From Marinobacter sp. SS13-12 (GTDB lineage: Bacteria; Pseudomonadota; Gammaproteobacteria; Pseudomonadales; Oleiphilaceae): 64,000 bases of DNA. The position numbers were made by a program, and so were the translations under genes. The notes beneath the pieces are model-generated. The model was not told where the DNA came from. It worked only from the letters and a program-made list of their open reading frames with translations, and did not search any database. The DNA is taken from assembly GCF_030227115.1 (NCBI RefSeq), contig NZ_JASSUA010000001.1, forward strand, positions 372,001-436,000, written 5' to 3'. The stretch's first letter is position 1, and the number at the start of each line of letters is the position of its first letter. Shown piece after piece: positions 22,243 through 50,562 of this stretch.

Positions 22243-22325
22243 GGGGGTGCGTTGTATTTTTCCTTGGGAAAAGAACTCGCTTCGCTCAGACACCTTTTCC
22301 TGGCGGAAAAATACAACGCACCCCC
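22243..22325. repeat. Long inverted repeat, shared-core family, copy A
   Basis: 21-bp perfect arms (22243-22263 and 22305-22325; left arm begins GGGGGTGCGTTG). Inside are a shorter stem (GGAAAAG/CTTTTCC) and the family core in reverse orientation at about 22273-22294. On the minus strand the core reads GTGTCTGAGCGAAGCGAGTT. It lies between nirB and nirD within the operon. Confidence 0.95.
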
Positions 22326-22417
22326 ACACTCATCGGGTCACGAGTTATCGCTGCTCGCAGACTCGAACGGGCCCAAGCCAACATTTTGAGTAAACCGTAT
22401 TGAAATTGGAGAATGTT

Positions 22418-22786
22418 ATGAAAGCACGCACTTCCTGGGATGTTGTTTGTACCGTTGAGGACCTTGTGCCGGAGTCCGGTGTGGCGGTCTGGACCGAGGA
22501 TGGGCCGGTGGCGGTGTTTTACTTGCCGCATCGGTTGCCGGCGTTGTTTGCCATCAGCCATACCGATCCGTTTACCGGCAAGAATTTGCTGGCGCGGGGT
22601 ATTACCGGCGACCTGAAAGGACAGCCGGTGGTGGCTTCACCACTTTACAAACAGCACTTCAACCTGCAGACCGGTCAATGCCTGGAAGATGAGGAGGTAG
22701 CCGTTAAAACCTACCCGGTCCTGCTGGATGGCACCAACGTCCGGGTAGAAATCCCGGCAGCGAACAAAGAATCAGTCGCAGCGTAA
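22418..22786 (+). CDS. nirD: Nitrite reductase small subunit
   Basis: 122 residues of the Rieske-fold NirD family, the small partner of NirB. The N-terminal WDVVCTVEDLVPESGVAVW and the SPLYKQHFNLQTGQCLEDE segment are typical. As usual for NirD, the Rieske Cys/His cluster ligands are absent. The ATG at 22418, with GGAGA about five bases upstream, is the start; an in-frame TTG at 22400 is less likely. Inverted repeats of the same family lie on both sides of the gene. It is convergent with the RND efflux genes. Confidence 0.9.
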   Translation: MKARTSWDVVCTVEDLVPESGVAVWTEDGPVAVFYLPHRLPALFAISHTDPFTGKNLLARGITGDLKGQPVVASPLYKQHFNLQTGQCLEDEEVAVKTYPVLLDGTNVRVEIPAANKESVAA

Positions 22787-22841
22787 CCGTTCATCACCAT
22801 GTCCTGAAAGCGGCCCGGCACAATGCCCGAAAAGCCGATTT

Positions 22842-22926
22842 GGGGGTGGGGGTATTTTTTCTGCCAGGGAAAAGGTGTCTGAGCGCAGCGAGTTCTTTTC
22901 CCCAAAGAAAAAATACCCCCACCCCC
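22842..22926. repeat. Long inverted repeat, shared-core family, copy B
   Basis: 21-bp perfect arms (22842-22862 and 22906-22926; left arm GGGGGTGGGGGTATTTTTTC plus T), an inner stem (GGGAAAAG/CTTTTCCC), and the core on the plus strand at 22874-22895 with a single variant base (GCA for GAA). It lies between the convergent ends of nirD and the RND permease gene. Confidence 0.95.
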
Positions 22927-22943
22927 GAAGCGGCGACTCCCCT

Positions 22944-25900
22944 TTACCGAACGGGCCGCTTGGCACGCCACCCGAGGACAAACACCGTAAGCGCCGGCAA
23001 GAAGGTAACAGTCACCGTAGCCGCACCAGCCAGACCGAACAGCACGATGGCACCCACGCCGCGGTATAACTCGGTGCCTTCGCCCGGCAGGAAGACCAGC
23101 GGGGACAGGCCGCAGATGGTGGTCAGGGTGGTCATGGCGATGGGTCTCAGGCGGGTTTCCACGGCGCCGATGACTGCATCCACCACCGACACGTCCTTGT
23201 GCCGCAGATTCTGCCTTGCCTGTTCCACCACCAGGATCGGGTTGTTGACCACCGTTCCCATCAAAATCAGAAAGCCCAGCATGGTGATCATGTCGAAGGG
23301 CTGGCTCAGAGGCAGCAGGCCGATTTTTGGCAACAGACCGCCCACCAGGTTCATCAGCGCCAGGCCGACGATGCCGCCAGCAATGCCCAGGGGAATGGCC
23401 GTCAGGATCAGCAGCGGGAAGCCCCAGTGGGCGAAGATGGCCACCAGCAGCAGGTACACGATCACCACCGCAATCATGAAATTGCCACTCAGGGCATCAC
23501 GGGTGGCGTTGAGCTGGTCGCTGGCGCCGGAGATGTCTATGGACACACCGGTTGGCAACTCGCCGCTGTCGCGCATGGCACCCAGAAGTTCTGTCCGCAC
23601 CCGTTCAACCCCGGCCTCCAGCGGCACATCATCCGGCGGGATGACGTTGAGGGTCACGGTACGGCGGCCATCCAGCCGGCGCACAGTGCTGGTGTCCACG
23701 GTTTCCTCGATGGTCGCCAGGCTCGACAACGGCAGGGTGGCGCCCTGGGGCGTGTGCACCATCACATCCGGCAGCTCGTCCAGGCTCGGGTTCCTGCCCT
23801 CGCTGCCATAAATGTAAATGTCGATCTTGTCGTCATCCAGGAAGAAGTCGTCGACATAGGATCCCTCCGTCAGCGACGCTACGGTGAAACCGATGGCCTC
23901 GGTGCCAAGGCCCAGTTCTGCGGCCCGGTCCCAGTCTGGCCGCACCTGGATCAACGGCTGGGCCAGGGAAAGGGTGACGGGCTGGGTCTGGATGCGGGGG
24001 TTGTCGAAAATCTCCCGGGCGCGGCCGTATGCGGTGTTGGCCACTTCGTAGATGGATACCAGGTCAGGCCCGGAGATATCCAGGTTAATGCTGCGGGTAC
24101 CGCCGTCGTTGCTGGAGATAATGGAGCCCTTGGCGGCAAAAGCCCGCATTCCCGGAAACTGCTCGTAGAAACCGGTGATCTGGTCCATCAGCACTTCGAT
24201 GTGTCGGGCGTTAACCGTTTCCGCGATGATCCGCACGTTGGTGGGGCTCACCTGCATGTTCAGATAGGCCAGGGGCGGTATCGGGGTGTCGCCGCGTTCA
24301 TAGGCTTCCGGGTCTGCCTGCACATGGGGCAGGAAGTGGTCTTCCACCTGTTTGGCGATGCTCTCCATCTCGGCCAGGTTGTAACCCGGCGGGGCATTCA
24401 TGGAGGCAAAGGTTTTTGGCTCTTCGCCTTCAGGCAGGTATTCAGCCGGCGGGGTGAGGAACAGGATGATCCAGGTACTCAGCGCAATGGTGCCCAGAAT
24501 AACCACGGCGCGCCTGAACGGCCCGCTGACCATCCGCCGCACGGCACCCACGATGGCGCCAGCCCATCCGCCAGATACCGTATTGCCGAACTGGTCGGTG
24601 TCGGTTTCACTGATGCCAAAATCAAGCCGTGCACTCAGCATCGGAATGACGGTGACGGCCACCAGCATCGACGCGAAAATGGCTGAGGAAATGGCAATCG
24701 CCACGTCGGAATACAGCTGCCCGGCTTCCTCCTCGATAAACAGGATCGGCAGAAACACCAGGATGGTGGTCATGGTGGAGGCGAGCACGGCCGGCCAGAC
24801 CTCCTGCACGCCTTTCAGCGCCGACTCGAACTTGTCCAGCCCCAGGCGACGATGCCGCTCGATGTTCTCCAGCACCACGATACTGTTATCCACCGTCATG
24901 CCAATGGCAAAGGCAACGCCGGCCAGGGAAATCACGTTGATGGTACGGCCGGTGATCATCAGACCGAGGAACGCCGCGATGGCACACAAAGGAATACCCA
25001 CCACGCCCACAAAGGTTGCCCTGGATGAACGCAAGAACAGGAACATCACCAGGGTGGCAAACACGGCACCGATGCCCAGGTTGGTCCAGACATTGGCAAC
25101 TGACGCTTCCACATAGCGGGCATCGTCGGCGGTCAGGGCCAGCCGCATTCCTTCCGGCTCCAGCACTTCCCGGTTGATGTTCTCCACCTCCTCCATCATC
25201 GCCCACTTGATATCGATGACGTTGGAGCCGCTCTCCCGCCGCACCTGCAGGCCCAAGACCCTCTGGCCGTTGATGTACGACAGCTCTCGGATGCGGGAAT
25301 GATCCTGTCGCACGCTCGCCACCTCAGACAGCCGGACCACACTGTCTCCGGTACGGGAGACGACCAGAGCACGCAGCTCCTCGATGTCGCGGAATCGCCC
25401 GACGGTACGCAGCAGGTAGCGGCGTTTGCCGGCATCCACTTCACCCCCTGACACGTCCTGGTTGCGGCTGGTGATGGCATCCCGCAGGTCCAGCAGGCTA
25501 AGGCCACGCTGAGCCAGCTTTGCTTCATCCACGGTGATCTGCATCTGCCGGTCGGCGCCGCCACCCACGGACACTTCGGAAACCCCGCGCACGCTTTCCA
25601 TGCGGGGGCGGACACGGTCCTCCACAAAATCGCGCATCAGGTCAATATCCAGCTCCCGGGGATTGCCCGGCAAGGTGGAAACCCGGAAATACATGAAGGC
25701 ATTGGAGGAGAACGAAGCCGCCACAATACGCGGCTCGTCGACGTTGGTGGGGTAGTTGGAAACCTGGCTGAGGGCGTTGTTCACCTGGATCAGGGTCTCG
25801 GTAATATCAACACCGAAGGGAAACTCCAGCTCGATTTCAGCGGCGCCGCTGGAAGCAGAGGATGCCATCTCGCTGAGATTCGGTACGTTGCGGAGATACC

Positions 25901-26099
25901 GCTCCTGCTCAATCAGGATTTCCTTCTCGATGTCCTGAGGTGTTGCCCCCGGCCACTGGGTTTCCACGGTGACCGTGCGGGTTTCCAGGTCCGGAATCAT
26001 CTGCACCGGAATGCGCAATGCCGCTGCAGCACCGATAACCGCAATAATCAGCGTGACCACGGTCACCAGGGTGCCGTGGCGAATGACTCCGGCAAACAT
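22944..26099 (-). CDS. RND efflux pump permease subunit
   Basis: Inner-membrane proton-driven pump of the resistance-nodulation-division superfamily, 1051 residues. TM helix 1 is at about 10-28, with large periplasmic porter domains at about 30-330 and 550-860. Two blocks of TM helices (about 335-540 and 860-1040) contain GVAFAIGMTVDNSIVVLENI, the helix-4 proton-relay region. The sequence is closest to the AcrB/MexF-like multidrug branch with some features of marine RND pumps. It overlaps the adaptor gene by one base (TGATG), so the two are cotranslated. No outer-membrane TolC partner is adjacent. Confidence 0.9.
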   Translation of the reverse strand: MFAGVIRHGTLVTVVTLIIAVIGAAAALRIPVQMIPDLETRTVTVETQWPGATPQDIEKEILIEQERYLRNVPNLSEMASSASSGAAEIELEFPFGVDITETLIQVNNALSQVSNYPTNVDEPRIVAASFSSNAFMYFRVSTLPGNPRELDIDLMRDFVEDRVRPRMESVRGVSEVSVGGGADRQMQITVDEAKLAQRGLSLLDLRDAITSRNQDVSGGEVDAGKRRYLLRTVGRFRDIEELRALVVSRTGDSVVRLSEVASVRQDHSRIRELSYINGQRVLGLQVRRESGSNVIDIKWAMMEEVENINREVLEPEGMRLALTADDARYVEASVANVWTNLGIGAVFATLVMFLFLRSSRATFVGVVGIPLCAIAAFLGLMITGRTINVISLAGVAFAIGMTVDNSIVVLENIERHRRLGLDKFESALKGVQEVWPAVLASTMTTILVFLPILFIEEEAGQLYSDVAIAISSAIFASMLVAVTVIPMLSARLDFGISETDTDQFGNTVSGGWAGAIVGAVRRMVSGPFRRAVVILGTIALSTWIILFLTPPAEYLPEGEEPKTFASMNAPPGYNLAEMESIAKQVEDHFLPHVQADPEAYERGDTPIPPLAYLNMQVSPTNVRIIAETVNARHIEVLMDQITGFYEQFPGMRAFAAKGSIISSNDGGTRSINLDISGPDLVSIYEVANTAYGRAREIFDNPRIQTQPVTLSLAQPLIQVRPDWDRAAELGLGTEAIGFTVASLTEGSYVDDFFLDDDKIDIYIYGSEGRNPSLDELPDVMVHTPQGATLPLSSLATIEETVDTSTVRRLDGRRTVTLNVIPPDDVPLEAGVERVRTELLGAMRDSGELPTGVSIDISGASDQLNATRDALSGNFMIAVVIVYLLLVAIFAHWGFPLLILTAIPLGIAGGIVGLALMNLVGGLLPKIGLLPLSQPFDMITMLGFLILMGTVVNNPILVVEQARQNLRHKDVSVVDAVIGAVETRLRPIAMTTLTTICGLSPLVFLPGEGTELYRGVGAIVLFGLAGAATVTVTFLPALTVFVLGWRAKRPVR

Positions 26100-27181
26100 C
26101 AGCGCGATCCCCGCTCTGCCAGCCGCACCCTGGCGCCATCCTCCAGGGATTCGTTGCCGCGGATCACCACCCGCTCGTCGCCATCGAGACCACTGAGAAT
26201 CTCCATGCGGTTATCGAAGCTGGCGCCCACTTCCACCCGTTTTTCACGCACTTCGTAGAGATCTTCATCTGCCGGATCGGCGATCCACACTGTGACGCGG
26301 CCGTCGGGATAGCGGTTAATGGCATCCCGGGAAACGGTTAGTCCCTGCTCACCCGTGGACACCCTTAATGTTGCCTGTACTGCCATGCCGGGCAGTACCT
26401 TCAGCGCTTCCGGCCCGGTGGCCCGCAGCAGGAACGTTCTGGCCCGGGTATCGCTGACCGGCACCAGGGATTCGATGGTGACCGGAACCGGTTTCTGGTC
26501 CACACCTTTGGCCTGAACCAGCAGTTCGGAAGCGTCAGTGATGCGCTGGTAGTAATCCTGGGGTACCCGAAAATCCAGCCTGAGGTTGGTGATATCCACC
26601 AGGGTCAGCAACTCGTCACCAGGCGTCACCCACTCTCCCAGGTCACTGGCACGGTTGCTGACAACGCCATCGAACGGCGCTTCAATGCGATGACGGTCCA
26701 GCACAACCTGGCGCCGCTTTTCTTCGGCACGCAAACGGGCAAGGGCGGCCTCCGTGGCGGCAACCTCGCTCTCGCGGGCGCTGACTTCTGTCGCCGCAAT
26801 ATTACGGCCTGCCCCCACCGAACGGGCTTCGGCCAGCCGGCGTTGCGCCTCCTCCAGCCGGACACGGGCTTCTGACGCCTCCGCACGGGCGCTTTCGAGC
26901 TCGAACTCTGCCTGCTCATCGTCCAGACTCATCAACAGATCGCCCCGGGCAACCCTGCCCCCGGTTTCGACCCGCACACCGTCAACAAGCCCTGCCACCG
27001 CCGTGGACAGCCGGGAGGTACGCAGGGCATTGACGGTACCGTTCAGGCTGACTTCGCTGATGATATCGGATGTTTCAACCTGCTCCAGTTCAACCCCGGG
27101 GCGATCCTGCGCCTGGACCTGCGATAGCGCAAAACACCACAATCCGGCCAGAAAGCCCAGTCGCATGACGAGTGGTTTCAC
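26099..27181 (-). CDS. RND efflux periplasmic adaptor (membrane fusion protein)
   Basis: 360 residues linking the RND pump to an outer-membrane channel. A signal peptide (about 1-24, ending VQA) is followed by the first lipoyl half, a coiled-coil hairpin (about 85-150, rich in Ala/Glu/Arg heptads), the second lipoyl half (HRIEAPFDGVVSNRASDLGEWV), a beta-barrel, and a membrane-proximal domain. It is the first gene of a two-gene operon with the permease. It diverges from the wax ester synthase gene, about 200 bp away. The substrate cannot be told. Confidence 0.9.
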   Translation of the reverse strand: MKPLVMRLGFLAGLWCFALSQVQAQDRPGVELEQVETSDIISEVSLNGTVNALRTSRLSTAVAGLVDGVRVETGGRVARGDLLMSLDDEQAEFELESARAEASEARVRLEEAQRRLAEARSVGAGRNIAATEVSARESEVAATEAALARLRAEEKRRQVVLDRHRIEAPFDGVVSNRASDLGEWVTPGDELLTLVDITNLRLDFRVPQDYYQRITDASELLVQAKGVDQKPVPVTIESLVPVSDTRARTFLLRATGPEALKVLPGMAVQATLRVSTGEQGLTVSRDAINRYPDGRVTVWIADPADEDLYEVREKRVEVGASFDNRMEILSGLDGDERVVIRGNESLEDGARVRLAERGSR

Positions 27182-27385
27182 TGAATGTCCCCTTTTGTCC
27201 TGCGCTGCTGCCGCGCTGAATTCTGTCTCTTGAAGCCACCATGAACCTACGTCGTGAAATCCCGGGCAGACCTGTCAAAGTCGGAGTTTCAGGCCTGTTC
27301 GGCCAGCAACCGGTACTTCCACCGACTCCTAAATGCTGCAACACTGTCTGCCAGACAACAACCAGAACAATGCGAGATTCATACC

Positions 27386-28753
27386 GTGAAACCACTGAGC
27401 CCGATAGACCAGGTGTTTCTGTGGCTGGAAAAACGCCAGCAACCCATGCACGTTGGTGGCCTGCAGCTGTTCTCGTTCCCTGAAGATGCACCGGACGACT
27501 ATGTCGCACAGCTGGCAGACCAGTTGCGGGAACAGTGTACGGTGACCCCGCCGTTCGACCGGCGCCTGAACAACCGGTTCGGCCAACCATTCTGGGTGGA
27601 AGACGAGCACCTGGACCTGGAGCACCATTTCCGGTTTGAAGCCCTGCCCACCCCGGGCCGTATCCGGGAACTGCTGGCGTTCGTCTCCGCAGAACACAGC
27701 CACCTGATGGACCGGGAACGGCCGATGTGGGAGTTCCACCTCATTGAGGGCCTGAAAGACCGACAGTTCGCCGTCTATATCAAGATACACCACTCCCTGG
27801 TGGACGGCGTTTCCGCCATGCGGCTGTTCCAGCGCATGCTGTCCCAGGACCCGGAACAGCGGAACATGCCCCCGATATGGGCACTGCCGCTGCGCAGCCG
27901 CAACAACAATGGCGACAACGGCCCGTCCATGTGGCGCAACGTCGCCCATCTGCTGGGGGAGTCCGGTAAACAGCTGGGTACGGTGCCGGCTGTGTCCAAG
28001 GCACTGTTGAGTACCGTCAACCGCGCGCGAAAGGACCCGGCCTACGACTCCATTTTCCACGCCCCCCAATGTGTCCTCAACGGCAAGATCACCGGCTCCC
28101 GACGCTTTGCGGCCCAGTCCTACTGCCTGAAGCGCATCAAGGCGGTGTGCAAGGCCTACGAAACAACAGTCAATGACGTGGTCATGGCCATGTGCGCCAC
28201 GGCACTGCGAACCTATCTGATGAACCAGGATGCACTGCCGGAGAAGCCACTGGTGGCGATGGTGCCCGTCTCCCTGCGCAAGGATGACAGCTCGGGCGGG
28301 AACCAGGTGGGCATCATCCTGGCGTCGCTGGGCACTCATCTGAACGACGCGGCTGAGCGGTTGCGCTATATCCATGAAGACGTGAAAGCCTCCAAAGAGC
28401 GCTACGCCAACATGTCTGCAGAGGAAATCCTGAACTACACCGCTTTGTTGCTGGCACCGGCAGGCTTCAACCTGCTGACCGGCCTGGCGCCGAAGTGGCA
28501 GACCTTCAACGTGGTAATTTCCAACATACCCGGGCCAAAGGAACCCAGCTACTGGAACGGAGCGAGGCTTGAGGGGATGTATCCGGTGTCTATTGCCATG
28601 GACCGGATCGCCCTGAACATGACCCTGACCAGCTACTGCGACCAGATCGAGTTCGGCCTGATCGGCTGCCGCCGCACCCTCCCCAGCCTGCAGCGGATGC
28701 TGGACTATCTGGAAGAGGGCCTGGCCGAACTGGAAAGCGCAGCCGGGATTTGA
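27386..28753 (+). CDS. Wax ester synthase / diacylglycerol acyltransferase (WS/DGAT)
   Basis: Bifunctional acyltransferase that esterifies fatty alcohols or diacylglycerol with acyl-CoA to make storage wax esters or triacylglycerol. 455 residues. The catalytic motif HHSLVDG is at about 135-141. Other family marks are FLWLEKRQQPMHVGGLQLF near the N-terminus, AYDSIFHAP, NDVVMAMCA and NVVISNIPGP. The start is GTG at 27386, giving VKPLSPIDQ and the family's normal length; the frame is open further upstream without similarity. The protein reads very like Marinobacter wax synthases and is the main clue to the genus. Confidence 0.93.
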   Translation: MKPLSPIDQVFLWLEKRQQPMHVGGLQLFSFPEDAPDDYVAQLADQLREQCTVTPPFDRRLNNRFGQPFWVEDEHLDLEHHFRFEALPTPGRIRELLAFVSAEHSHLMDRERPMWEFHLIEGLKDRQFAVYIKIHHSLVDGVSAMRLFQRMLSQDPEQRNMPPIWALPLRSRNNNGDNGPSMWRNVAHLLGESGKQLGTVPAVSKALLSTVNRARKDPAYDSIFHAPQCVLNGKITGSRRFAAQSYCLKRIKAVCKAYETTVNDVVMAMCATALRTYLMNQDALPEKPLVAMVPVSLRKDDSSGGNQVGIILASLGTHLNDAAERLRYIHEDVKASKERYANMSAEEILNYTALLLAPAGFNLLTGLAPKWQTFNVVISNIPGPKEPSYWNGARLEGMYPVSIAMDRIALNMTLTSYCDQIEFGLIGCRRTLPSLQRMLDYLEEGLAELESAAGI

Positions 28754-28756
28754 GGT

Positions 28757-29164
28757 TTAACCGAACCTTACCTCCCGGTTACGCTGCGAAATCTGGTCAT
28801 TCAGCGTCCAGAAGTCATAGAGCACGCCCACCAGGAACAAACCACCGGTGAGCAGGTAGAGGATCCCGGTGATCCACTTGCCCATGTACATCCGGTGGAG
28901 CCCAAACACCCCCAGGAAGGTCAGCAGAATCCAGCCAATGTTGTAACTCACTTCACCGGACTCATACCGTATGTCGGCTTCCCGGTCCATGGCGGGAATC
29001 AGGAACAGGTCGATGAACCAGCCGATAAACAGCAGCCCGAGCGTCAAGAACCAGATGGTGCCGGTAATCGGCTTGCCATAGTAGAACCGGTGTGCGCCCA
29101 GGAATCCGAAGATCCAGAGCAGGTAGCCGATGAGTTTGCTGTGGGTATCCTGATTGATTTCCAT
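28757..29164 (-). CDS. TM2-domain membrane protein
   Basis: 135 residues with two related membrane hairpins. The first is LIGYLLWIFGFLGAHRFYYGKPITGTIWF (about 10-38), the second a similar stretch (about 76-110, with GVFGLHRMYMGKWITGILY). This is the TM2 domain pattern, glycine-rich helix, H-R-F/M-Y, G-K. Function is unknown. The ATG at 29164 follows AGGAAA. An in-frame extension upstream runs through inverted repeat copy C and is judged non-coding. Its 3' end lies 4 bp from the wax synthase stop codon, on the opposite strand. Confidence 0.85.
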   Translation of the reverse strand: MEINQDTHSKLIGYLLWIFGFLGAHRFYYGKPITGTIWFLTLGLLFIGWFIDLFLIPAMDREADIRYESGEVSYNIGWILLTFLGVFGLHRMYMGKWITGILYLLTGGLFLVGVLYDFWTLNDQISQRNREVRFG

Positions 29165-29232
29165 TTGGTTTCCTTTTGGCGGTTTGCTGGCCTGAATCTT
29201 TAGCCCTAGCCTGCTGGTGCTGGTGCCTGGCT

Positions 29233-29317
29233 GGGGGGCTGGTTTATTTTTCCTTGGGAAAAAGAACTCGCTGCGCTCAGACACCTTTTTCCTGGCGGAA
29301 AAATAATCCAGCCCCCC
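29233..29317. repeat. Long inverted repeat, shared-core family, copy C
   Basis: 21-bp arms with one mismatch (29233-29253 and 29297-29317; left arm begins GGGGGGCTGG), an inner stem (GGGAAAAAG against CTTTTTCC), and the core in reverse orientation at 29264-29285 with the GCA variant. Confidence 0.93.
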
Positions 29318-29409
29318 ATCCGTCAGACAGTTAGGGCATAGTCCCCGATTACAAGCTGAAAGCAAGTGAACGAAACGAAAGACAGCCTTCTCCCACGGTC
29401 ACTGGGTGT

Positions 29410-29494
29410 GGGGTGGGGGTATTTATTTTTCTCGTAAAAAATGGTGTCTGAGCGAAGCGAGTTCATTTTTCGAAAAAATAAATACCCCCACCCC
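29410..29494. repeat. Long inverted repeat, shared-core family, copy D
   Basis: 21-bp perfect arms (29410-29430 and 29474-29494; left arm begins GGGGTGGGGGTATTTA), an inner AAAAATG/CATTTTT stem, and the core on the plus strand at 29443-29464. Confidence 0.95.
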
Positions 29495-29541
29495 GCAACC
29501 ACGCTCCCAAGCCAGAGGCACAGCAGGCCAGGGCACCAAAG

Positions 29542-30648
29542 TCACGGCCCAACTTCAGGAGCAGGGTCGGGACCGCCTTCGCGGAATTCGCTGGCGGACT
29601 TGCCGGTCCACTTGCGAAAGGCGCGGCTGAAGTTGGACAGGTCGGCGTACCCCAGCTCGTAGGCGATCTCGCTGACTGACTGGTTAGTGTAGCGCAACAG
29701 CTGAATGGCGCGGTCTTTCAGTACGGCTTCTACTATCTCCCGGTAAGTCGTGTCCTTTTCCGCCAGCCGCCGCTTCAGGGTTCGGGACGATACGCAGAAA
29801 CGTTCAGCCATGGCCTCCAGGGAGGGCAGTGGGCCCGGCATCATGTGGAGCATGTTGCGGATGGCGTAGGTGATGTCGCCCTGGTCTTTCAGGGCTTTTT
29901 GCAGCTCGAATTCGCACTGGTCCCGGGCCATCCGGGATGCTTCCGCGTCTGCCAGCCGCATCCGGGTGTCCAGCAGGCCCTTGGGGAACACCATGGTTTC
30001 TTCCGGCTGGCCGTATTCGAACGGCACCGGCAGCTGGGGAGCGAATTTGCGGTAGTAAGCCGGTTCCGGTGATGTCAGTTGCACTTTCACACCGGGAAGT
30101 TTGCCATCCACCAGCGCAAATCCCTGTTTTTCCGCATCTTCGCGGTCGATCAGTTGCTCTGCCAGCATCATCAGGGTCGCGCTTACGGTTTCTGACAGGA
30201 AGCGGTACTGGGTAGGTACGTCGAACTCGGACCGTAACCGCACCAGCACGTGGTCACCGGTGTCGGTCAGGGTCATGGTCAGGAAAGGCACCCGCAGTTG
30301 CAGATAACGCCGCACCGAATCCAGCGCGCCTGCCAGGGTGGGGCTGGTCAGGGCGGCGAACCCGAGTGTGCCGTGAATGGTGACCCGCAGCTCGCGGGCC
30401 AGCATGAAGCTCAGGCCGTCTTTACCGGCCAGATCCAGGGCCCGCTCTACCATCACAATGGCGTCGGTGACGAACACCCGGCTGTCGTTGGACTTCAGGT
30501 CCTGGGGGGCGACGTCCATGCCCTCGTAAAGGCTGCGGTCATTGTAACCCAGTTGTCGCACCACATCCGCCAGCACCCGCAGATACACACCGGGAACCAG
30601 GAACACTCCCAGCATCTGCCGTTCTTTTTCCGGGCCCGGGTTCGCCAT
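29542..30648 (-). CDS. AraC-family transcriptional regulator
   Basis: 368 residues. The N-terminal two thirds resemble the arabinose-binding-type sensor domain found in OruR/ArgR-like AraC regulators (about 20-215). The C-terminal ~100 residues form the double helix-turn-helix (MAERFCVSSRTLKRRLAEKDTTYREI and SVSEIAYELGYADLSNFSRAFRKWTG). The ATG at 30648 with AGGATC upstream is preferred; an in-frame ATG lies at 30681. It diverges from the PF10118 hydrolase gene, a common regulator-target layout, so that gene may be its target. The inducer is unknown. Confidence 0.9.
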   Translation of the reverse strand: MANPGPEKERQMLGVFLVPGVYLRVLADVVRQLGYNDRSLYEGMDVAPQDLKSNDSRVFVTDAIVMVERALDLAGKDGLSFMLARELRVTIHGTLGFAALTSPTLAGALDSVRRYLQLRVPFLTMTLTDTGDHVLVRLRSEFDVPTQYRFLSETVSATLMMLAEQLIDREDAEKQGFALVDGKLPGVKVQLTSPEPAYYRKFAPQLPVPFEYGQPEETMVFPKGLLDTRMRLADAEASRMARDQCEFELQKALKDQGDITYAIRNMLHMMPGPLPSLEAMAERFCVSSRTLKRRLAEKDTTYREIVEAVLKDRAIQLLRYTNQSVSEIAYELGYADLSNFSRAFRKWTGKSASEFREGGPDPAPEVGP

Positions 30649-30879
30649 GCAGGATCCTTTTGTTGTTGTGGGAGCACTCATTGCTACCGATGCTATCAGA
30701 AGCCCGACACAGCGGCACTGTGACTGGAGGCACCTGCAGGCACGTCAGCACAGTCAATTGAGGCCAGCGCTGGCCCCTACTCCACGATGGCCGTCCCCTT
30801 TTCGCATTCAAAGGCTGCATTGACTCACCCACACTGGAATCATCACATCAGCCATAGCGCCAAGCGCAGGAGTACAGAC

Positions 30880-31770: not shown

Positions 31771-31791
31771 TCTATAAGTCCGTGCAGTCGC

Positions 31792-31891
31792 AAGCGGCCA
31801 CCTTCTGCCAAAACACGCCTCGAGACGTCCCTGTGCGGCTCGGGCTCCGCCATCCATGGCTCCGCACGGTTTTGGCAGAAGGTGCCCGCTT
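31792..31891. repeat. Long inverted repeat G
   Basis: 23-bp arms with one mismatch (31792-31814 and 31869-31891; left arm begins AAGCGG and ends CTTCTGCCAAAAC) around a 54-bp centre containing CCATCCATGG and partial complements (GTGCGG/CCGCAC). It lies between the convergent hydrolase and GGDEF genes. It lacks the core of copies A-E; CCATCCATGG is shared with repeat H. Confidence 0.93.
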
Positions 31892-31938
31892 ACGACCCGA
31901 ATTTGGGAGTGATACTGAAAGAAGCTCAGCTTCTTGAA

Positions 31939-34626: not shown

Positions 34627-34628
34627 AC

Positions 34629-37212: not shown

Positions 37213-37222
37213 GCCCGGAAAC

Positions 37223-40129: not shown

Positions 40130-40308
40130 CCTGTTCTCCTTGTTGGTTATCGGTGACGGGCCCAGCGCAACCCATTCCAGTTTAACAAGGATAGTCCGCA
40201 AGTGACGGTTTTGTCAGCCAGAACCGCTGGCGGACTGACAAGGCCCGATGAACCCGATATTCTGTCCTGACCGTATTAACCAGCGAATCCCCTATACAGG
40301 AAACCTGA

Positions 40309-41674: not shown

Positions 41675-41676
41675 TT

Positions 41677-42264: not shown

Positions 42265-42373
42265 ACCCCCGTTTTTCCTGCCGCTTCCAGGCCGCCAGAT
42301 GATCCCAAACCATCCGTCGCTCGTAAGTCCGTGGGTAGCACATCATCCCTCGAGCACTAATGAGAGCAAAACG

Positions 42374-42679: not shown

Positions 42680-43128
42680 TTGCGGTCGCCAGGCTGGCGA
42701 TTGTCGTTGGCATTGCCGGGTTACTGCCTTTCCTTGCAGCCATACTCGGCCTGTTCATGATGCCCGCCAAAAGTGTGGCCATTATCAGTTACTTCTACCT
42801 TTACAGCGCCGGTATCCTGGCCTTTATGGCGGGTATCTACTGGCCACTGGCAATGCAACTGGAGAACCGCTGCTACCCGATTTCACCACTGGTGACCATG
42901 CTGCTCAGCCAGGTCTTCTTCGTCTCGGCTGGTATCGGGCTTTTGCTGCCCGTTGCAGCGCAGATCGTGCTTTACACCGTCGCCTATATGGCACTGTATG
43001 TGGTTGATGCACGCTGGATGAGGGTCTATTGGCCGGACTGGTACCTGAAACTGAGATTGTTACTGACCGCCGTTGTGTTGTTGTGTCAGGTAGCGGCCGG
43101 TACCTGGTTTTTTATCGCTCATGGCTGA
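42676..43128 (+). CDS. DUF3429-type integral membrane protein
   Basis: 150 residues with about five hydrophobic helices. The stretch AGILAFMAGIYWPLAM (about 47-62) is typical of DUF3429 proteins. Function unknown. The start is GTG at 42676, overlapping the previous stop. It is convergent with the sigma factor gene, 23 bp away. Confidence 0.72.
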   Translation: MIAVARLAIVVGIAGLLPFLAAILGLFMMPAKSVAIISYFYLYSAGILAFMAGIYWPLAMQLENRCYPISPLVTMLLSQVFFVSAGIGLLLPVAAQIVLYTVAYMALYVVDARWMRVYWPDWYLKLRLLLTAVVLLCQVAAGTWFFIAHG

Positions 43129-43151
43129 GAACCAGCCTGAACCTCCGGAGC

Positions 43152-44150: not shown

Positions 44151-44269
44151 GGCACAGGTTCCGATCGTAAGTTTATAAAAGATACGCGCGGAACAGTGCC
44201 GTGGATCCCCGGCTACCGGGGGTTCAGTAGCTACTTGCGGCAATTACGGACGGGATGAATCCCGCCCGG

Positions 44270-45712
44270 TTATGCTGCGACGATAGCGTACTCGTGATTG
44301 TAGGGCTCAATCAGCACGCCGTGGAGCGCCACGATGGTCTTCTTGTAGGCGTCTTCATCCACCACAAACTGGATGTCGACCTGGCGCATGCACTGGTGCA
44401 GGGCCAGAATACTGATTTCCTCATCCGCCAGGGCCTTGACGGACTTTGCGAGGATGCCCGGTATCTTGATATCACTACCAATGGCAGAAACAATCGCCAC
44501 TTTGCGGGTACTGATTTCCGCGTTGGGGAACTCATCCTTCAACGCCCGTACCACCCGCTTGACGTGCTTGAGCGTGCTGTCGACGTAATGGGTAATGGTG
44601 TTGGCGTTGGTGTCCTTGGAGATAAAGCGCACCTTGAAACGGCCAAGCACTTCCAGAATGCGACGGTCCGAGCCCGGCTCGCCCTGCATGTCCTGGTCAA
44701 ATACCTCAATGGCAAACACGCCTTTGTTGCCGGCGATGATCTCCACCTGCGGCTTCTCACTGACGTAGTCGCCGGTGATCAGAGTACCGGTATGCTCTGG
44801 CTCGAAGGTATTCATCACCCGCAGCGGAATTTCATTCTGGCGCATGCCTTTGCCGGCACGGGGATGGATGGCTTCCATTCCCAGGTTCGCCAGCTGGTCC
44901 GCCACGTCGTAATTGGTACGGCCAAGGGGCACCACCTTGTCTGCGCCGACAATGTTGGGGTCGGCAGAGCTGAGATGGTATTCCTTGTGGATGATAGCCT
45001 CTCGGGCGTTGGTGATGACCGCCACCCGGCTGAAGGTCATCTCGCTATAGCCCCGGTCAAAGGTGCGCATCAGGCCTTCCTTGCACTGTGCATACCCGGT
45101 GACGATGGGCAACTCACGGGTCAGGTCCACGGCATCGAAGGCCTGTTTGAGCTTTTCGTCCAGTGGCAACAACTCGTTGTCGCGCCAGCCTGTCAGGTCC
45201 ACAAAGCGTGCGTTGATACCTTCCTGCTGAAGCTTGAGGGCGGTGTTGAAGGCGCTGTGTGCCTCGCCAATGCCAGCCAGCATTTCACGCACCGTCAGCA
45301 GGTGTTCTTCCAGTTGGAACTGGCCGTAGGAACACAGGCGCTGCAGATCGATCAGGCAACCACGAACACCTTCAATCCGATCAGTAATGAACTGGTCCGC
45401 CTGCTGCTTGAGCATGGGGTCCCCGAACAGTTCGCCGTTGATGTCGGTCAGGAACTTGATCAGCTTGGTGAGGTCGTCACCCCAGGCCCAGTCGGACTCC
45501 GCATCGGCAAACAGGGCATAAACGCCCGGCTCGCCGGTTTTCTTGTGCTCCAGCAGTTCATCGGTGACACCGCCATAGGCGGAGACCACGAATATGCGCT
45601 GGTAGAGGTCGTCCTTTTCGCGCCCGCCGAGAATGATATTGTCGCGCACGGCCTCGTAGTTACTCATCGAGGTGCCGCCGATCTTCTCTACGGTATGTCG
45701 TTCGCTAGTCAT
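44270..45712 (-). CDS. ask: Ectoine-cluster aspartate kinase
   Basis: Phosphorylates aspartate in the first step toward aspartate semialdehyde, the ectoine precursor. 480 residues. The N-terminal kinase domain has VEKIGGTSMSN (about 8-18) and later GFDRGYSEMTFS-like and SSADPNIVGADKVVPLG segments. Two ACT domains follow (about 320-480). It belongs to the specialised Ask_Ect branch found next to ect genes. It starts 52 bp after ectB stops. The ectC gene usually placed in that gap is missing. Confidence 0.92.
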   Translation of the reverse strand: MTSERHTVEKIGGTSMSNYEAVRDNIILGGREKDDLYQRIFVVSAYGGVTDELLEHKKTGEPGVYALFADAESDWAWGDDLTKLIKFLTDINGELFGDPMLKQQADQFITDRIEGVRGCLIDLQRLCSYGQFQLEEHLLTVREMLAGIGEAHSAFNTALKLQQEGINARFVDLTGWRDNELLPLDEKLKQAFDAVDLTRELPIVTGYAQCKEGLMRTFDRGYSEMTFSRVAVITNAREAIIHKEYHLSSADPNIVGADKVVPLGRTNYDVADQLANLGMEAIHPRAGKGMRQNEIPLRVMNTFEPEHTGTLITGDYVSEKPQVEIIAGNKGVFAIEVFDQDMQGEPGSDRRILEVLGRFKVRFISKDTNANTITHYVDSTLKHVKRVVRALKDEFPNAEISTRKVAIVSAIGSDIKIPGILAKSVKALADEEISILALHQCMRQVDIQFVVDEDAYKKTIVALHGVLIEPYNHEYAIVAA

Positions 45713-45764
45713 AGTGTTACCGTTGTTATCCTGCAGAATGAATGGTTGGGGAATGGCAGGCGTC

Positions 45765-47033
45765 TCAGGACGCCTTGCTCATCCCTTCCTGCATGATTTC
45801 GTCCACGCTCTGTGCCAGAAGTTTAGCACCTTTGCGCAGATCATCCTCGCTGGTGGTCAGCGGCATCAGGCATTTGATCACTTCGTCGTTGGGGCCACTG
45901 GTTTCAATAATCAGCCCCTTTTCAAAGGCACGGCTGGTAATCTTGTCTGTCAGCTCGGCGTGGGTCGCTTCGATGCCACGCATCAGGCCGCGGCCCTTCA
46001 TTTTGAACTCGCCCGGATACTTGTCACAGATGGCCTGCAGACCTTCACCCAGCACCTCGGTTTTGGCCTTCACCTCGTTGGCAAAAGCGTCGTCTTTCCA
46101 ATACGTCTCGACGGCTGCCCGAGCCGTCACGAAAGCCATGTTGTTGCCACGGAAGGTGCCGTTGTGCTCACCCGAACTCCAGATATCAAACTCCGGCTTG
46201 AACAGCACCAGCGCCATGGGCAGGCCGTAACCACTCAGCGACTTGGAAACGGTGACAATGTCCGGCTTGATACCGGCAAATTCAAAGCTGAAGAACTCAC
46301 CGGTACGGCCGTTACCCGCCTGGATGTCATCCAGAATCAGCAGGATATCGTGCTTCCTGCAAAGCTTCTCAAGCCCTTGCAGCCACTCGGCGCGGGCGGC
46401 GTTAAGGCCGCCTTCACCCTGGACCGCCTCGACAATCACCGCAGCCGGCAGCTCAAAGCCGGACGAACCATCGGACAGCACCTTGTCCATGATCTCCAGG
46501 GTATCGACGTTCTCGCCCAGATAGCCGTCGTAGAACATGAAGTCCACATTGCCCAGCGGGGTACCGACACCACCACGGTGGTGCTTGTTACCGGTAGCGG
46601 CAACTGCACCCATGGTCACGCCATGGAAACCGTTGGTAAAGGAAATGATGCCATTTCGACCTTTCACCTTGCGGGCCAGCTTCAAGGCTGCTTCCACGCA
46701 GTTGGTGCCGGTGGGGCCGGTAAACTGCATTTTGTAGTTCAGGCCACGGGGGTCCAGGATGCGATTCTTGTAGGACTCAATGAAATCATGCTTGGCGGTG
46801 GTGAACATATCCAGGCCCTGACTGACACCATCGTTTTCAATGTACTCCAGCAGGGCTTTCTTGAGAATGTCGTTGTTGTGGCCATAGTTCAGTGACCCGG
46901 CGCCAGCCAGAAAATCCAGGTATTCCTTGCCATCTTCGGTGTAAAGGTGCGCATTCTTGGCGCGGTTGAAAATCACCGGAAAGGCACGGGAATAAACACG
47001 TACTTCGGATTCAGTCGACTTGAAAAGTTCCAT
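45765..47033 (-). CDS. ectB: Diaminobutyrate-2-oxoglutarate transaminase
   Basis: PLP enzyme converting aspartate semialdehyde to 2,4-diaminobutyrate, the first committed step to ectoine. 422 residues, the normal EctB length. The cofactor-binding segments include [54 protein letters not shown] and the PLP-Lys in [14 protein letters not shown]. The ATG at 47033, with GAGG upstream, agrees with the family start. It lies 134 bp after ectA and 52 bp before ask. Confidence 0.95.
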
Positions 47034-47167
47034 GGTCTTGCCTCTTAGCATGTCAGGTTCGAGGTAGTTGTGCGGTGGCACGTTGGTTGAGGCCGTTGTG
47101 ACAGATTCACCTCAGCAATCTGCCGGCCAGTCCAAACAGGGGTATCGATCGTTCGGGAAGGCTGCTG

Positions 47168-47683
47168 TTACGCCGGCTTTGTGAAAGGCCCGATGCGGAG
47201 CAGAAACTCGGAGTCGTGCTTGCCGCCAAAGTGGGTGTCTTTCTCAAAGTGCTCGTGATAGGTGAGCTCGGCACCCATGTCACGGGCAAACGACCGGAAC
47301 AGCGCCCAGGAAGCCTCGTTGTCTTCGGTGATGGTGGTTTCCATATGGGTCACGTTTTTGCACGCGTCCCGGGCCACGATCGCCTTCAGCATTCGCTTGG
47401 CCAGACCCTGACCACGACCTTTCTCGTGAACGGCCACTTGCCAGACAAACACGGTTTCGGGCTGTTGGGGGGGAATATATCCGGAAATAAAGCCGACCAG
47501 ATCGCCGTCTATCTCCGCCGCCACGCCGGTTTCGGCAAAGTGGCTGCACTGCAGGAGGTTGCAGTAGATCGAGTTGGGGTCCAGCGGCGGGCACTGTGCC
47601 ACCAGCTGGTGGAGCCTGTAGCCATCATCCTTGACCGGTGTGCGGAGGTTGATGGCGGTGGTATTCGAGCCTTCTGATGTCAT
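47168..47683 (-). CDS. ectA: Diaminobutyrate acetyltransferase
   Basis: GNAT-family acetyltransferase that acetylates 2,4-diaminobutyrate at the gamma nitrogen using acetyl-CoA. 171 residues. The family block QLVAQCPPLDPNSIYCNLLQCSHF near the N-terminus and the acetyl-CoA loop EKGRGQGLAKRML identify it as EctA. An in-frame ATG at 47704 gives 7 more residues; 47683 is preferred by family alignment from memory. It is the first gene of ectA-ectB-ask, behind a strong sigma-70-type promoter. Confidence 0.92.
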   Translation of the reverse strand: MTSEGSNTTAINLRTPVKDDGYRLHQLVAQCPPLDPNSIYCNLLQCSHFAETGVAAEIDGDLVGFISGYIPPQQPETVFVWQVAVHEKGRGQGLAKRMLKAIVARDACKNVTHMETTITEDNEASWALFRSFARDMGAELTYHEHFEKDTHFGGKHDSEFLLRIGPFTKPA

Positions 47684-47718
47684 AACGTGATCGATTCGCC
47701 TCAAAAAGTTAGCGTTAA

Positions 47719-47746
47719 ATTATATAGACCACAAAATATATTTCAA
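47719..47746 (-). promoter_or_regulatory. Sigma-70-type promoter of ectA
   Basis: On the minus strand TTGAAA, a 16-bp AT-rich spacer, then a perfect TATAAT, placed about 35 bp upstream of the ectA start codon. Confidence 0.75.
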
Positions 47747-47832
47747 GTCAGGCTTACTGGCGACCCTGCCAGGAATGCTGGCCTGCTCTCTAAGAATAGA
47801 CCGGATTGTGGCGCGCGCCAGTGACAAATTTG

Positions 47833-48783
47833 TTAAACAGCAGGAGGGAAAACAATACGATCTGACGTCAGGGATGTACCGCCGACGATGCGGCTCCGGT
47901 AAGACACTGCAGCGGCCGAACCACCGGGCCACAGCTGATCGAATCGCGGTAGCCACGCTCCCAGATCGTAGGCAACGGGCACCAGGGATACGTTCAGCCC
48001 TCGCCGCTCAAGACCGGCAACGGCCTCAAACTGCGGACTTGTCAGACCAATGCGGGTAACCAGGCCCCGCGGGTCCTGCTCCAGGTTCCCCATACCCGCG
48101 GAGCCGTTATTAACCACGACGCAACTGCGCCCTTCCACCGTTCCTGACCAGAGCACCGGCAGGCAGGTGTGGGTGGAGGCGATCACATCAGCACCGGACT
48201 CGGCAAACCATTCCGCCAGCTGCAATTCGTTGCCCGCCCCAAACGACTCATGGGCCAACCCCCATCCCGCCAGGGACTCCGGATCGCCGTGCACCACTAA
48301 AATCTTTAGGCCTCCAAATAACAGGCAGCGATAGCGTGGCAGCAGGCGGAGTCGTTTCTGGATGTCCGGGTGGTCACCAGCCACTCCCTGCAGCCGCTCA
48401 ATGATGTCATTGGAGCGCTCGACCACGCCCTGGTCAACAAAGTCCGGGTAGGCACAGCCACAGCCTGCACCGTCACTCGGGGTGGCCAGCTCATAATCCA
48501 CATTCCCCAAGCTGACCATATGATCCAGCACCCGGCAATTGATTTCCCTGAACAGGGTATCGCTGGCATTGAACCAGTTGAAATCGCCATTGAAGATCAG
48601 CTTGACCCGGTGCCCCTGGCGTTCCTCTTCAAGCGCCATCCGCTCTATTTCATCAAGAGCGTATGGGTTTCCGTAGAGCCCGCCGATGATATAAAGCACG
48701 TCCTCGGTGACCTGCCGGGGTTCCCGGCACAAGTCGGAAGGTCTGTATCGATAAGCCAGGGGGCAGCTTCTGCCTTCGTTCAT
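47833..48783 (-). CDS. Metallophosphoesterase-like protein with altered first metal motif
   Basis: 316 residues with the calcineurin-like order of motifs: LYIIGGLYGN (about 31-40), FNGDFNWFNAS (about 63-73), SLGNVDYELA (about 92-101), LVVHGDPES (about 166-174), ASTHTC (about 203-208) and NNGSAGM. In ordinary metallophosphoesterases motif I is GDIHGN. Here the metal-binding Asp and His are Gly and Tyr, so a metal centre may be incomplete or the fold modified. It starts 8 bp after the symporter gene ends and forms an operon with it. Confidence 0.7.
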   Translation of the reverse strand: MNEGRSCPLAYRYRPSDLCREPRQVTEDVLYIIGGLYGNPYALDEIERMALEEERQGHRVKLIFNGDFNWFNASDTLFREINCRVLDHMVSLGNVDYELATPSDGAGCGCAYPDFVDQGVVERSNDIIERLQGVAGDHPDIQKRLRLLPRYRCLLFGGLKILVVHGDPESLAGWGLAHESFGAGNELQLAEWFAESGADVIASTHTCLPVLWSGTVEGRSCVVVNNGSAGMGNLEQDPRGLVTRIGLTSPQFEAVAGLERRGLNVSLVPVAYDLGAWLPRFDQLWPGGSAAAVSYRSRIVGGTSLTSDRIVFPPAV

Positions 48784-48791
48784 ACCAATTC

Positions 48792-50195
48792 CTAGGCCTC
48801 ACCGGCCGCAAGCGATCGACCGGCCAGCCTGCGGGCCACCAGTGGCAGGAAGAAGCCGGCCGTACAGAACAGGAAGCCGTAGGCGTTGACCCCGAGGAGC
48901 ATCGCGTAGGCTCCGTCACCAATGGCCCAGCTCGCTGGAATCAGACCCAGGGCAAGCAACACGCCCAGCCCCAGGCCAGTCCAGAAACTCAGATGAAAAC
49001 TCCACGGTGACCAACGGGTAAAGCCGTAGAACAGGAATACCGGCGCCAGCCCCATCACCATGGTGCCAGAAATAGTCGTAGCCTTGAGGATGTCGGTACC
49101 CGCAAACATCGGCAGGTTACCCAGGAGCGCAAAGACAATCATGATCACGGCACCCACGCGCACGCTGGGCAACCGGTCCTTCGCCCGCCTCGCCAGCCGC
49201 GGCAGATCCACCGCCAGGGATTTGGCCAGTGAACTGAAGGTGGAATCCAGCGTTGAGCCGGCCGACGTCATCATCACCACACTCATGAAGAACAGCGCCG
49301 CCAGCCCCAGCGACTGACCCACCGCCGCCGGCGCATTGCCCATGGCCTCGATACCGTTGAGGCGGGCGTGCACACCCACCAGGCTGAAGATAAACACCGC
49401 CACAAAACCCAGAAGCCCGGCAACCACGAAGCTCTTGAGCATGGTCTTCTCCTTGTTCACGAAGCCCCGGTCAGTCAGTACCGGATCATGAAAGGGATAA
49501 CTGAACATCTGCAACAACGCCACCAGCAAGAGGTCAAATCCGGCGTTGAGCTTGAACTCACCATTGCTCAGCAGTGCACTGGTATCGTTGGCCGGGACAA
49601 TGAGAAACAGCACTGCGCCAACAAAGAACACAAACACAAAGGCCTGGATCACATCGGTAAAAATCGACGACCGCAAACCGCCCTTGAGGCTGTAGGCCAG
49701 GGTAAACATGGTAAATAGCATGGCAGCGCCGTAGTACTCCCACTCACCCGGCAGCCCGAAATAACCACCCACCACCGCGGTATTGCTCCAGACCTCGTTG
49801 TACAACCGAATCAGAATCGCCGCCGCAAACGCCAGACTGGCAAGCCGGCCAAAACGGGACGTCAGAAAATCCTGCAGACTGCGGGCCCCGGTCTGGGTAC
49901 GAATCAGGTAAATGATGTAACCCGCCACCGGAATCGACAGCCAGTAACTGGCATAGGCAAGCCCGCCGGTCACCCCGTAAGCGGCACCCAGGTTGGCGGC
50001 GTTGGTCACCGACTTGGCAAAAATCCAGCTGATAAAAATACTCGCCGTCAGCGACCACTGGCCTACCGGGTTGCCCTCGTCATCCGCTCCCTTGTAGAAA
50101 GAATTGGCGTTCTTGCTCTTCGGCGACAACACATACATCACCACCCCATAAACCACCAAAAATCCCCAAAACAGGGAGGCTTCCGTGAAATTCAT
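48792..50195 (-). CDS. Sodium:solute symporter family transporter
   Basis: Inner-membrane cation/solute symporter of the SSS family, 467 residues with about 12-13 helices. Typical marks are GVTGGLAYASYWLSIPVAGYIIY (about 72-94), the RSLQDFLTSRFG motif, YSLKGGLRSSIFTDVIQAF, and SAGSTLDSTFSSLAKSL near the Na+ site. The frame is open further upstream but the family-like N-terminus begins at the ATG at 50195 (MNFTEASLFWGF). Solute unknown. The metallophosphoesterase gene follows after 8 bp; two inverted repeats precede it. Confidence 0.88.
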   Translation of the reverse strand: MNFTEASLFWGFLVVYGVVMYVLSPKSKNANSFYKGADDEGNPVGQWSLTASIFISWIFAKSVTNAANLGAAYGVTGGLAYASYWLSIPVAGYIIYLIRTQTGARSLQDFLTSRFGRLASLAFAAAILIRLYNEVWSNTAVVGGYFGLPGEWEYYGAAMLFTMFTLAYSLKGGLRSSIFTDVIQAFVFVFFVGAVLFLIVPANDTSALLSNGEFKLNAGFDLLLVALLQMFSYPFHDPVLTDRGFVNKEKTMLKSFVVAGLLGFVAVFIFSLVGVHARLNGIEAMGNAPAAVGQSLGLAALFFMSVVMMTSAGSTLDSTFSSLAKSLAVDLPRLARRAKDRLPSVRVGAVIMIVFALLGNLPMFAGTDILKATTISGTMVMGLAPVFLFYGFTRWSPWSFHLSFWTGLGLGVLLALGLIPASWAIGDGAYAMLLGVNAYGFLFCTAGFFLPLVARRLAGRSLAAGEA

Positions 50196-50268
50196 TGTCT
50201 GTTCTGTCCTCGTTCTTTGTTGTCCGGGGCTTTTCCCCGTGTCTTCAAGTTCGGGAGTTATCGGGGCC

Positions 50269-50365
50269 GGTGGGTCGGGGTTCAAAAAAACGCCCGTGAA
50301 CCCATCCATGGGGGGCTTGGTCGCGCCATCCCTGGCGCTCCACATTTTTTGAACCCCGACCCACC
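50269..50365. repeat. Long inverted repeat H
   Basis: 21-bp perfect arms (50269-50289 and 50345-50365; left arm begins GGTGGGTCGGGGTTCA), extendable outward with one mismatch. The ~55-bp centre holds CCATCCATGG, also present in repeat G, and GCCATCCCTGGC. Confidence 0.95.
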
Positions 50366-50475
50366 GCCCCCTTGTCCAAATGCAGTCTTGCCTTCCCCGG
50401 TTTCGCTGGCAGGCAAAGCAACAGCAAAAAACGTTCTTGTCCTTACCCAACGAATTGCAGTGATTCAACCGCGGT

Positions 50476-50562
50476 CTGGGGGTGGTGTTTTATTTCCGCC
50501 AGGAAAAAGGTGTCTGAGCGAAGCGAGTTCTTTTTCCCAAGGAAATAAAACACCACCCCCAG
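50476..50562. repeat. Long inverted repeat, shared-core family, copy E
   Basis: 22-bp perfect arms (50476-50497 and 50541-50562; left arm begins CTGGGGGTGGTGTTTT), an inner GGAAAAAG/CTTTTTCC stem, and the core GTGTCTGAGCGAAGCGAGTT with flanking bases at 50509-50530 on the plus strand. Confidence 0.95.

Follow-up and report, generated by a model that had tools for sequence, protein, structure and literature searches.

Five hairpins with one conserved tip

We analysed a 64,000-nucleotide (nt) stretch of Marinobacter sp. SS13-12 (contig NZ_JASSUA010000001.1, positions 372,001 to 436,000), hereafter the window. It holds nirB and nirD and genes for an AcrB-type RND protein, a TM2-domain protein, an AraC-type regulator and a radical-SAM protein. 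Beside these genes lie five long hairpins that share a central sequence, the core, and differ in their arms (Table 1). We report that pairing in this element is copy-specific and compensatory, and that the strand bearing the core (the core strand) is the one selected as a fold. A preliminary description, made from the letters of the window, had placed five hairpins here. All five were found by an independent inverted-repeat search of the window, which supplied the outer coordinates in Table 1, and by centre counts and folding. The 12-nt centre GAGCGAAGCGAG (at most one mismatch) occurred 5 times in the window compared to 0.44 expected, and 0 of 100 shuffles reached 5. Folding z-scores of the five copies were −7.6 to −10.5 as RNA, where 0 of 200 shuffles per copy folded equally well, and −7.9 to −9.6 as DNA.

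Table 1. Coordinates and setting of the five hairpins in the window
Copy	Position	Core strand	Core	Setting
1	22237..22331	−	22274-22293	between nirB (ends 22218) and nirD
2	22834..22934	+	22875-22894	between the ends of nirD (22786) and an AcrB-type RND gene (22944, − strand)
3	29229..29321	−	29265-29284	start side of a TM2-domain gene (− strand); no adjoining stop codon
4	29403..29501	+	29444-29463	AraC-type regulator gene (29542-30681, − strand), stop ~40 nt beyond the edge
5	50471..50567	+	50510-50529	radical-SAM gene (50606-51610, − strand), stop ~40 nt beyond the edge

The anatomy of the hairpin is firm. The arms are 25–29 nt long, 92–96% complementary and spaced by 41–43 nt, and the whole element measures ~90–100 nt in this genome. 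Read from the outside inward, a typical core strand has an outer stem, a short asymmetric internal loop (for example CGCCA/CAA), an inner stem (for example GGAAAAAG/CTTTTTCC) and an apical loop. Both stems vary between copies; the apical loop is conserved. In all five window copies it reads GTGTCTGAGCG, then A or C, then AGCGAGTT, which forms a GC-GNA-GC mini-hairpin with GA on either flank. The trend from G-rich to T-rich arms proposed earlier was seen in the five copies, as an outer stem that is G-rich outside and T-rich inside on the core strand. The five copies had also been called intergenic throughout. This is likely and stays unproven, as the mechanical list of open reading frames (ORFs) has several that overlap elements, including 22840-23811 (+), 28757-29365 (−) and 50217-50642 (+). 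Since the Pfam domains fall in neighbouring ORFs, we regard these ORFs as spurious or too long; in ORF 28757-29365, the best TM2 stretch runs from residue 74, beyond the element. All of the five but copy 3 end next to a stop codon, and copies 3 and 4 form an outward-facing pair.

Genome-wide, we observed 31 copies of the core (at most two mismatches), 16 forward and 15 reverse, and 0 matches to a reversed control pattern. The two orientations look balanced and give no hint of a replication-strand bias. The core was carried by 110 of 120 sampled Marinobacter genomes, with 1,408 copies in the total sample. Detailed counts below use a convenience sample of these, 137 copies from 10 genomes; one of them (L232) was retained though it enters an odd C run at a contig end. 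The arms had been described as differing between copies yet self-complementary, and this was borne out in the 31 copies: the pairing score had a median of 49 for matched arms compared to 24 for arms swapped between copies, and 16 of 930 swapped arms reached the matched median. The copy's own partner arm was the best or equal best among all 31 in 22 copies. In the other 9 another copy's arm paired better, which indicates that several copies are closely related. Pairing is thus copy-specific, and neither non-complementary arms nor a background frequency of the core was found.

Compensatory change and the selected strand

We detected nirD DNA in 92 of the 120 genomes and fetched 30 loci. The element lay between nirB and nirD, in unchanged orientation, in 27 of the 30 (the orthologues of copy 1); the core was intact in 22 of these and had one change in 5. 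Because the loci were located via nirD, conservation of the core, and with it the loop, is not a product of a core-based search at this site. Two of the remaining three loci had paired arms and a lost core (L316, L319), and one had lost the hairpin. The element persists vertically, with loss of the core or the hairpin in some species.

The alignment of the 27 loci, from which the 3 core-less loci were excluded, gave clear covariation. The 19-pair outer stem was paired in 96.5% of cells. Changes on both sides of a pair were seen in 99 cells, compared to 33.3 after shuffling (0 of 500 shuffles equal) and at most 19 with one side slid. The covariation score was 0.522, compared to 0.168 for shuffles, none of which reached it, and at most 0.129 with one side slid. 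Change at nirB-nirD is compensatory, and it is so at one inherited site rather than across unrelated copies.

A G·T pair on one strand is an A·C mismatch on the other, so an excess of one over the other shows which strand's fold is selected. Among isolated stem mismatches read on the core strand, the G·T:A·C ratio was 96:22 for Marinobacter (137 copies) and 49:16 for other taxa (139 copies). A sign count per locus in the other taxa gave 29 loci with more G·T, 7 with more A·C and 76 ties among 112 (P = 0.0003). By gene context, the ratio was 38:7 for tandem copies antisense to the gene, 13:2 for tandem copies in sense and 26:9 for convergent copies. A separate count for this genome was set aside, as 4 of its 35 copies come from other genomes. 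Whatever the direction of transcription, the bias in the three contexts goes with the core strand, which makes transcription-coupled mutation an unlikely cause. The excess of G·T over A·C shows that selection acts on the fold of the core strand, also at loci where this strand is the template for the adjacent gene. Together with the covariation at nirB-nirD, this bears out the earlier proposal of selection for a hairpin.

An explanation without function would have quasipalindrome correction (template switching) perfect the arms, and recent common descent would account for the uniform loop. The preliminary description had likewise suggested that one arm is copied from the other. We observed such copying as a rare event: the internal loop was nearly or fully paired (at most one unpaired column) in 7 of the 137 copies. 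By eye, four of these seven looked copied from the 5' side and one from the 3' side, five readable rewrites in all, and two were unreadable. Template switching therefore probably happens, and the two orthologues that lost the core and kept paired arms look as a slippage deletion would leave them. It is not the general explanation, because 123 of the 137 copies retain three or more unpaired columns in the internal-loop region, and something holds this loop open in most copies. Correction also gives no reason for a preference for G·T over A·C on one strand, and the core occurs in several phyla with quite different arms. We consider a functionless origin improbable.

Gene ends, the replication origin and other phyla

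We assessed the position of the core relative to genes after excluding 30 of the 137 copies that overlap crude ORF calls. In the remaining 107, a gene ends on the 3' side of the core in 82 copies, in 73 of these at a distance within 100 nt. The closest stop codon was antisense to the core in 69 copies, on its 3' side, and in sense in 32; 6 had none. Two more copies lacked a neighbour on one side, and the other 105 comprised 61 tandem contexts, of which 43 were antisense and 18 in sense, along with 39 convergent and 5 divergent ones. Judged by the gaps of 110 bp or more found in 340 kb of this genome, one would expect ~60 tandem, ~17 convergent and ~29 divergent. The element lies next to stop codons and avoids divergent gaps (5 of 105 compared to ~29 expected). 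All four pairs of copies within 700 bp in this genome read minus then plus, that is, outward, and 11 close pairs among the listed places of one Lachnospiraceae genome (G142) also face outward. Such pairs are expected where convergent genes hold one copy each. Close copies on the same strand were exceptions, seen in L120 and G357.

Copies also crowd 40–330 kb downstream of dnaA, on one side, in the six Marinobacter genomes tested out of 11 with a located dnaA; the other 5 had incomplete lists of copy positions or a fragmented assembly. The share of copies in this cluster was 14 of 25 on the dnaA contig here (C1, 280–561 kb), 12 of 23 in G103, 8 of 12 in G015, 12 of 14 in G076, 5 of 6 in G027 and 4 of 9 in G072, in matching regions of those five genomes. 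Binomial P values, with close copies merged, ranged from 0.0095 to 2e-7; they are only indicative, since the distance range was picked post hoc and some sites are common to several genomes. A different repeat in this genome showed no such crowding (2 of its 24 matches on that contig; P = 0.0006, Fisher's exact test). The clustering, like the gene-end position and the outward pairs, would suit a topological element, a cruciform with an AT-rich centre at gene ends, which would take up supercoiling or bind gyrase or HU; such a role has been claimed for BIMEs. Such an element needs neither a specific apical loop nor an asymmetry between the two strands, and we regard this role as quite improbable. 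A replicative origin, also raised in the preliminary description, found no support, because tens of copies are dispersed in both orientations.

The preliminary description had supposed that the core may occur more widely in bacteria, and this is the case. With one genome per species, the exact 16-base core pattern gave at least 119 stretches. By our own estimate chance could yield about as many, so the matches themselves are no evidence; the surrounding hairpins are. In 139 copies from outside Marinobacter and G142, the pairing score had a median of 26 compared to 3 for shuffled arms, and 65 of the 139 beat the best shuffle. Among the matches listed, the core was found in Pseudomonadota, Bacteroidota, Bacillota, Nitrospirota and Fusobacteriota. 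The 34 genomes reached via these loci, 3 of them Marinobacter, held 2–144 copies each (at most one mismatch) and 728 in total, compared to 6 for the reversed control. An unbiased draw found the exact core in 13 of 398 Pseudomonadota genomes, all 13 of Marinobacter's class and 3 of them Marinobacter; 7 of the 10 other carriers had at least 4 copies. The family is rare by species and usually multicopy where present. Core matches in viral contigs comprised 7 stretches. We also noted a plasmid copy, in Marinobacter adhaerens pHP-187 (L338), ~1.3 kb from a NusG-family gene and with no obvious partner gene.

In the Lachnospiraceae genome G142, ~109 pairs of copies at different loci share at least 88% identity, and the shared stretch runs, at the median, from −96 to +105 nt relative to the core. 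Near-identity at different loci indicates dispersal and not inheritance alone. By eye, the G142 copies (L288, L258, L094) differ greatly in arm length yet resemble one another at their edges, with GGCGTACCT or GCGTACCT on the 3' side and often CAGCC on the 5' side, as if the arms resize inside fixed ends. In Betaproteobacteria and Bacteroidota copies (L264, L273, L279, L281, L060 and others), a second, T-rich/A-rich hairpin of the GGTTACTTTTGG...CCAAAAGTAAC type often stands ~60–110 nt 3' of the core hairpin, also judged by eye. This second hairpin alone matches Burkholderia and Paraburkholderia replicons, at up to ~40 places each. One neighbour family, found in 6 loci, resembles a translation of the second hairpin.

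A proposed folded strand among known repeats and signals

We then weighed whether the selected fold is DNA or RNA. RNA counterparts of GNA mini-hairpins are much weaker than the DNA forms. The apical loop contains d(GCGNAGC), and its N, which was unconstrained in the search, was A in 74 and C in 63 Marinobacter copies and A in 93, C in 50, T in 20 and G in 12 elsewhere. GNA loops on two G-C pairs are described as exceptionally stable, nuclease-resistant DNA mini-hairpins, with GCGAAGC melting at 78 °C (PMC4686876). Most copies are antisense to the adjoining gene end, so its mRNA bears the unselected strand; for nirB-nirD, the template is the core strand. This speaks against an ordinary RNA hairpin of a 3' untranslated region. 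Because of the mini-hairpin and the antisense placement, the selected fold is probably DNA rather than RNA, a view we hold with modest confidence.

The element could instead act as RNA, through a hairpin in a core-strand transcript (a stabiliser of the 3' untranslated region, an antisense RNA, or a barrier or terminator) that is bound via its loop. The G·T bias on the core strand suits RNA as well as single-stranded DNA (ssDNA), the RNA folds are very stable, and RNA 3' hairpins typically lie at gene ends (PMC13155455, PMC1590033). The preliminary description held that the hairpins are not simple terminators. This mostly stood: the T-runs of the main hairpin lie within the stem, and terminator-like sites stayed near the shuffle level (10 compared to 6.9 ± 3.1 shuffled in one scanned stretch, 1 compared to 0.9 in the other). 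Three of the ten weak sites sit on element arms (22238, 22933, 29227), which favours RNA, and the arms may have a minor terminator role. We consider the RNA explanation unlikely on the whole, as 69 of 107 copies are antisense to the nearest ending gene, the bias persists in tandem-antisense copies, promoters were not in excess in the two scanned stretches (2 compared to 2.1 expected; 0 compared to 0.2 expected) and no Rfam family fits. Rfam gave 0 matches at gathering score in the window. Permissive Rfam scans of 6 and 4 loci gave no gathering-score match on the hairpins, the best on one being mir-4637 (36.3 bits, 89 needed). The sole match above cut-off was a 6S RNA in L124 (350-529), distant from the core at 78. 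We dismissed microRNA and other eukaryotic Rfam matches as generic long-hairpin matches.

A REP/REPIN family mobilised by a RAYT (TnpA-REP) would account for dispersed hairpins, inverted pairs and a gene-end position. The RAYT link suggested earlier was not supported, although two results speak for it: in this genome a RAYT gene (C1:2156250-2156822; L042, L162) lies between two element copies, as one does in G016 and G080, and copy number is higher in genomes that have this RAYT subgroup (median 22 compared to 9.5, P = 0.0002), possibly through shared ancestry. Within the 1.5-kb flanks of 12 RAYT loci, we found two element copies at 3 loci, one at 4 and none at 5 (one of these at a contig end). 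GTAGGTCGGATTAG (GTAG-type) repeats flank the RAYT gene in 11 of the 12 loci, this genome's included. This RAYT occurs in 12 of 120 genomes compared to 110 of 120 for the element, and at least 10 copies were present in 54 genomes without it and in 36 of the 58 genomes where no Y1 protein was detected. Copy number was independent of Y1 transposase presence (median 8.5 with, 12.5 without, P = 0.24). At a fixed 18-nt foot, the REP tags GTAG and CGTC were not above background: 7 and 10 of the 137 copies on the core strand and 2 and 1 on the other, compared to 8.0 expected. We rejected RAYT as the partner on the grounds of the copy counts in its flanks, of the GTAG-type repeats beside it and of the Y1 result, with the copy excess in the RAYT subgroup standing against this rejection, and we judge mobilisation by RAYT very improbable.

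We compared the element with known systems. REPs prefer gene ends. Integron attC sites are recognised as a single folded strand, and their stem sequence varies while structure is kept. The element resembles attC in being a folded single strand with variable stems and kept structure; unlike attC arrays, it is dispersed in both orientations (16/15), and its conserved part is the apical loop. Like REP/REPIN, it forms dispersed extragenic multicopy palindromes with two-copy dimers in several phyla (PMC3733652, PMC6006769). Unlike REP/REPIN, which are tagged and in many cases RAYT-associated, it has no tag above background, a conserved apical loop and free arms, it is ~90–100 nt long with ~200 nt or more shared in G142, and no matching transposase was found. 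A further likeness is to the 'atypical secondary structures' associated with subclass 2.6/class 3 TnpA, atypical hairpins of which some are high-copy (PMC6006769); this comparison is by description only. Ype, Efa, NEMIS and ERIC are also intergenic stem-loop repeats, and Ype and Efa prefer gene 3' ends; those repeats, unlike the element, are described for particular species or groups (PMC1590033). The element works like a REP-type or attC-type folded-strand signal, yet fails one tested defining feature of each. In one open-access library, core strings led only to two plant papers, unrelated by title and abstract start; of 188 papers with shorter core strings, the 30 listed looked unrelated by title, and broader listings did not name the loop in titles or abstract starts. 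The GAGCG string was absent from the main text of four palindrome and hairpin papers including PMC1590033.

Our leading reading, which we hold tentatively and at slightly less than an even chance, is that the element is a REP-like palindromic repeat, dispersed in the genome, and that selection acts on a single folded strand, the one bearing TGTCTGAGCGNAGCGAGTT, probably as DNA. Some factor probably reads the tip of the element as a folded strand. In such a mechanism, the core strand would extrude, or fold once exposed, as DNA, and a trans-acting protein (a hairpin-binding nuclease, recombinase or architectural protein) would read the tip. The tip would then be kept, and the arms would need only to pair, because the protein reads the tip. 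The protein or ssDNA copying may have spread the repeat, and gene ends would retain it because insertion there causes little harm.

Several observations weigh against this reading. The clustering near oriC is not explained by a folded strand, and the comparison of 910 ORFs all against all, from the 119 listed loci including Marinobacter, gave no partner protein: no gene family recurs beside the core except common ones (an ATP-binding transporter in 9 loci and the next two families in 6 each). The independence of copy number from Y1 presence belongs here too. Outside Marinobacter, the stop-codon trend was weaker (27 antisense, 17 sense and 10 without a stop, 46 sites inside crude ORFs being excluded), and in 36 copies of G142 the G·T:A·C bias was weak (27:16). 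At nirB-nirD, the stem structure was derived from the same alignment as the covariation, 10 pairs had both-sided change compared to 8.0 shuffled (20 of 500 shuffles as high), and further pair types numbered 29 compared to 24.9 (9 of 500). The 137 copies are of common ancestry, so their counts are not independent, and loop invariance among them is partly built in, since copies were gathered by the core pattern (1–2 mismatches). The case for DNA consists of the mini-hairpin and the antisense placement.

A broader interpretation seems to us possible but doubtful. The copies may belong to a multi-phylum family of DNA-structure signals, in which one or more proteins recognise the folded core strand via a fixed, ultrastable d(GCGNAGC) tip, the arms are free as long as they pair, and gene ends and the origin-side stretch in Marinobacter are marked. 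Should the core strand indeed be read as folded DNA, nature would offer in these copies a widely scattered set of ssDNA or cruciform signals that contains its own control, as the arms vary and the tip is fixed, and the hairpin-reading protein could be fished out directly. It would also suggest that strongly covarying intergenic hairpins need not be RNA, which is relevant to pipelines for RNA discovery. Since copies crowd beside the origin in Marinobacter, a part in chromosome organisation can be tested.

The window contains a second hairpin type, overlooked in the preliminary description. Three further long inverted repeats (17107-17212, 31787-31896 and 50263-50371) have arms of 26–28 nt, a spacing of 54–55 nt and other centres, and by eye the three look related. 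ACAGGGACGTATTCACAGCG is present only in the first of them (17107-17212) and gave 37 genome matches (at most three mismatches) compared to 1 for the control. These matches are spread along the genome and are not near dnaA. The hairpins at 17107-17212 and 31787-31896 start 12 and 17 nt beyond a stop codon.

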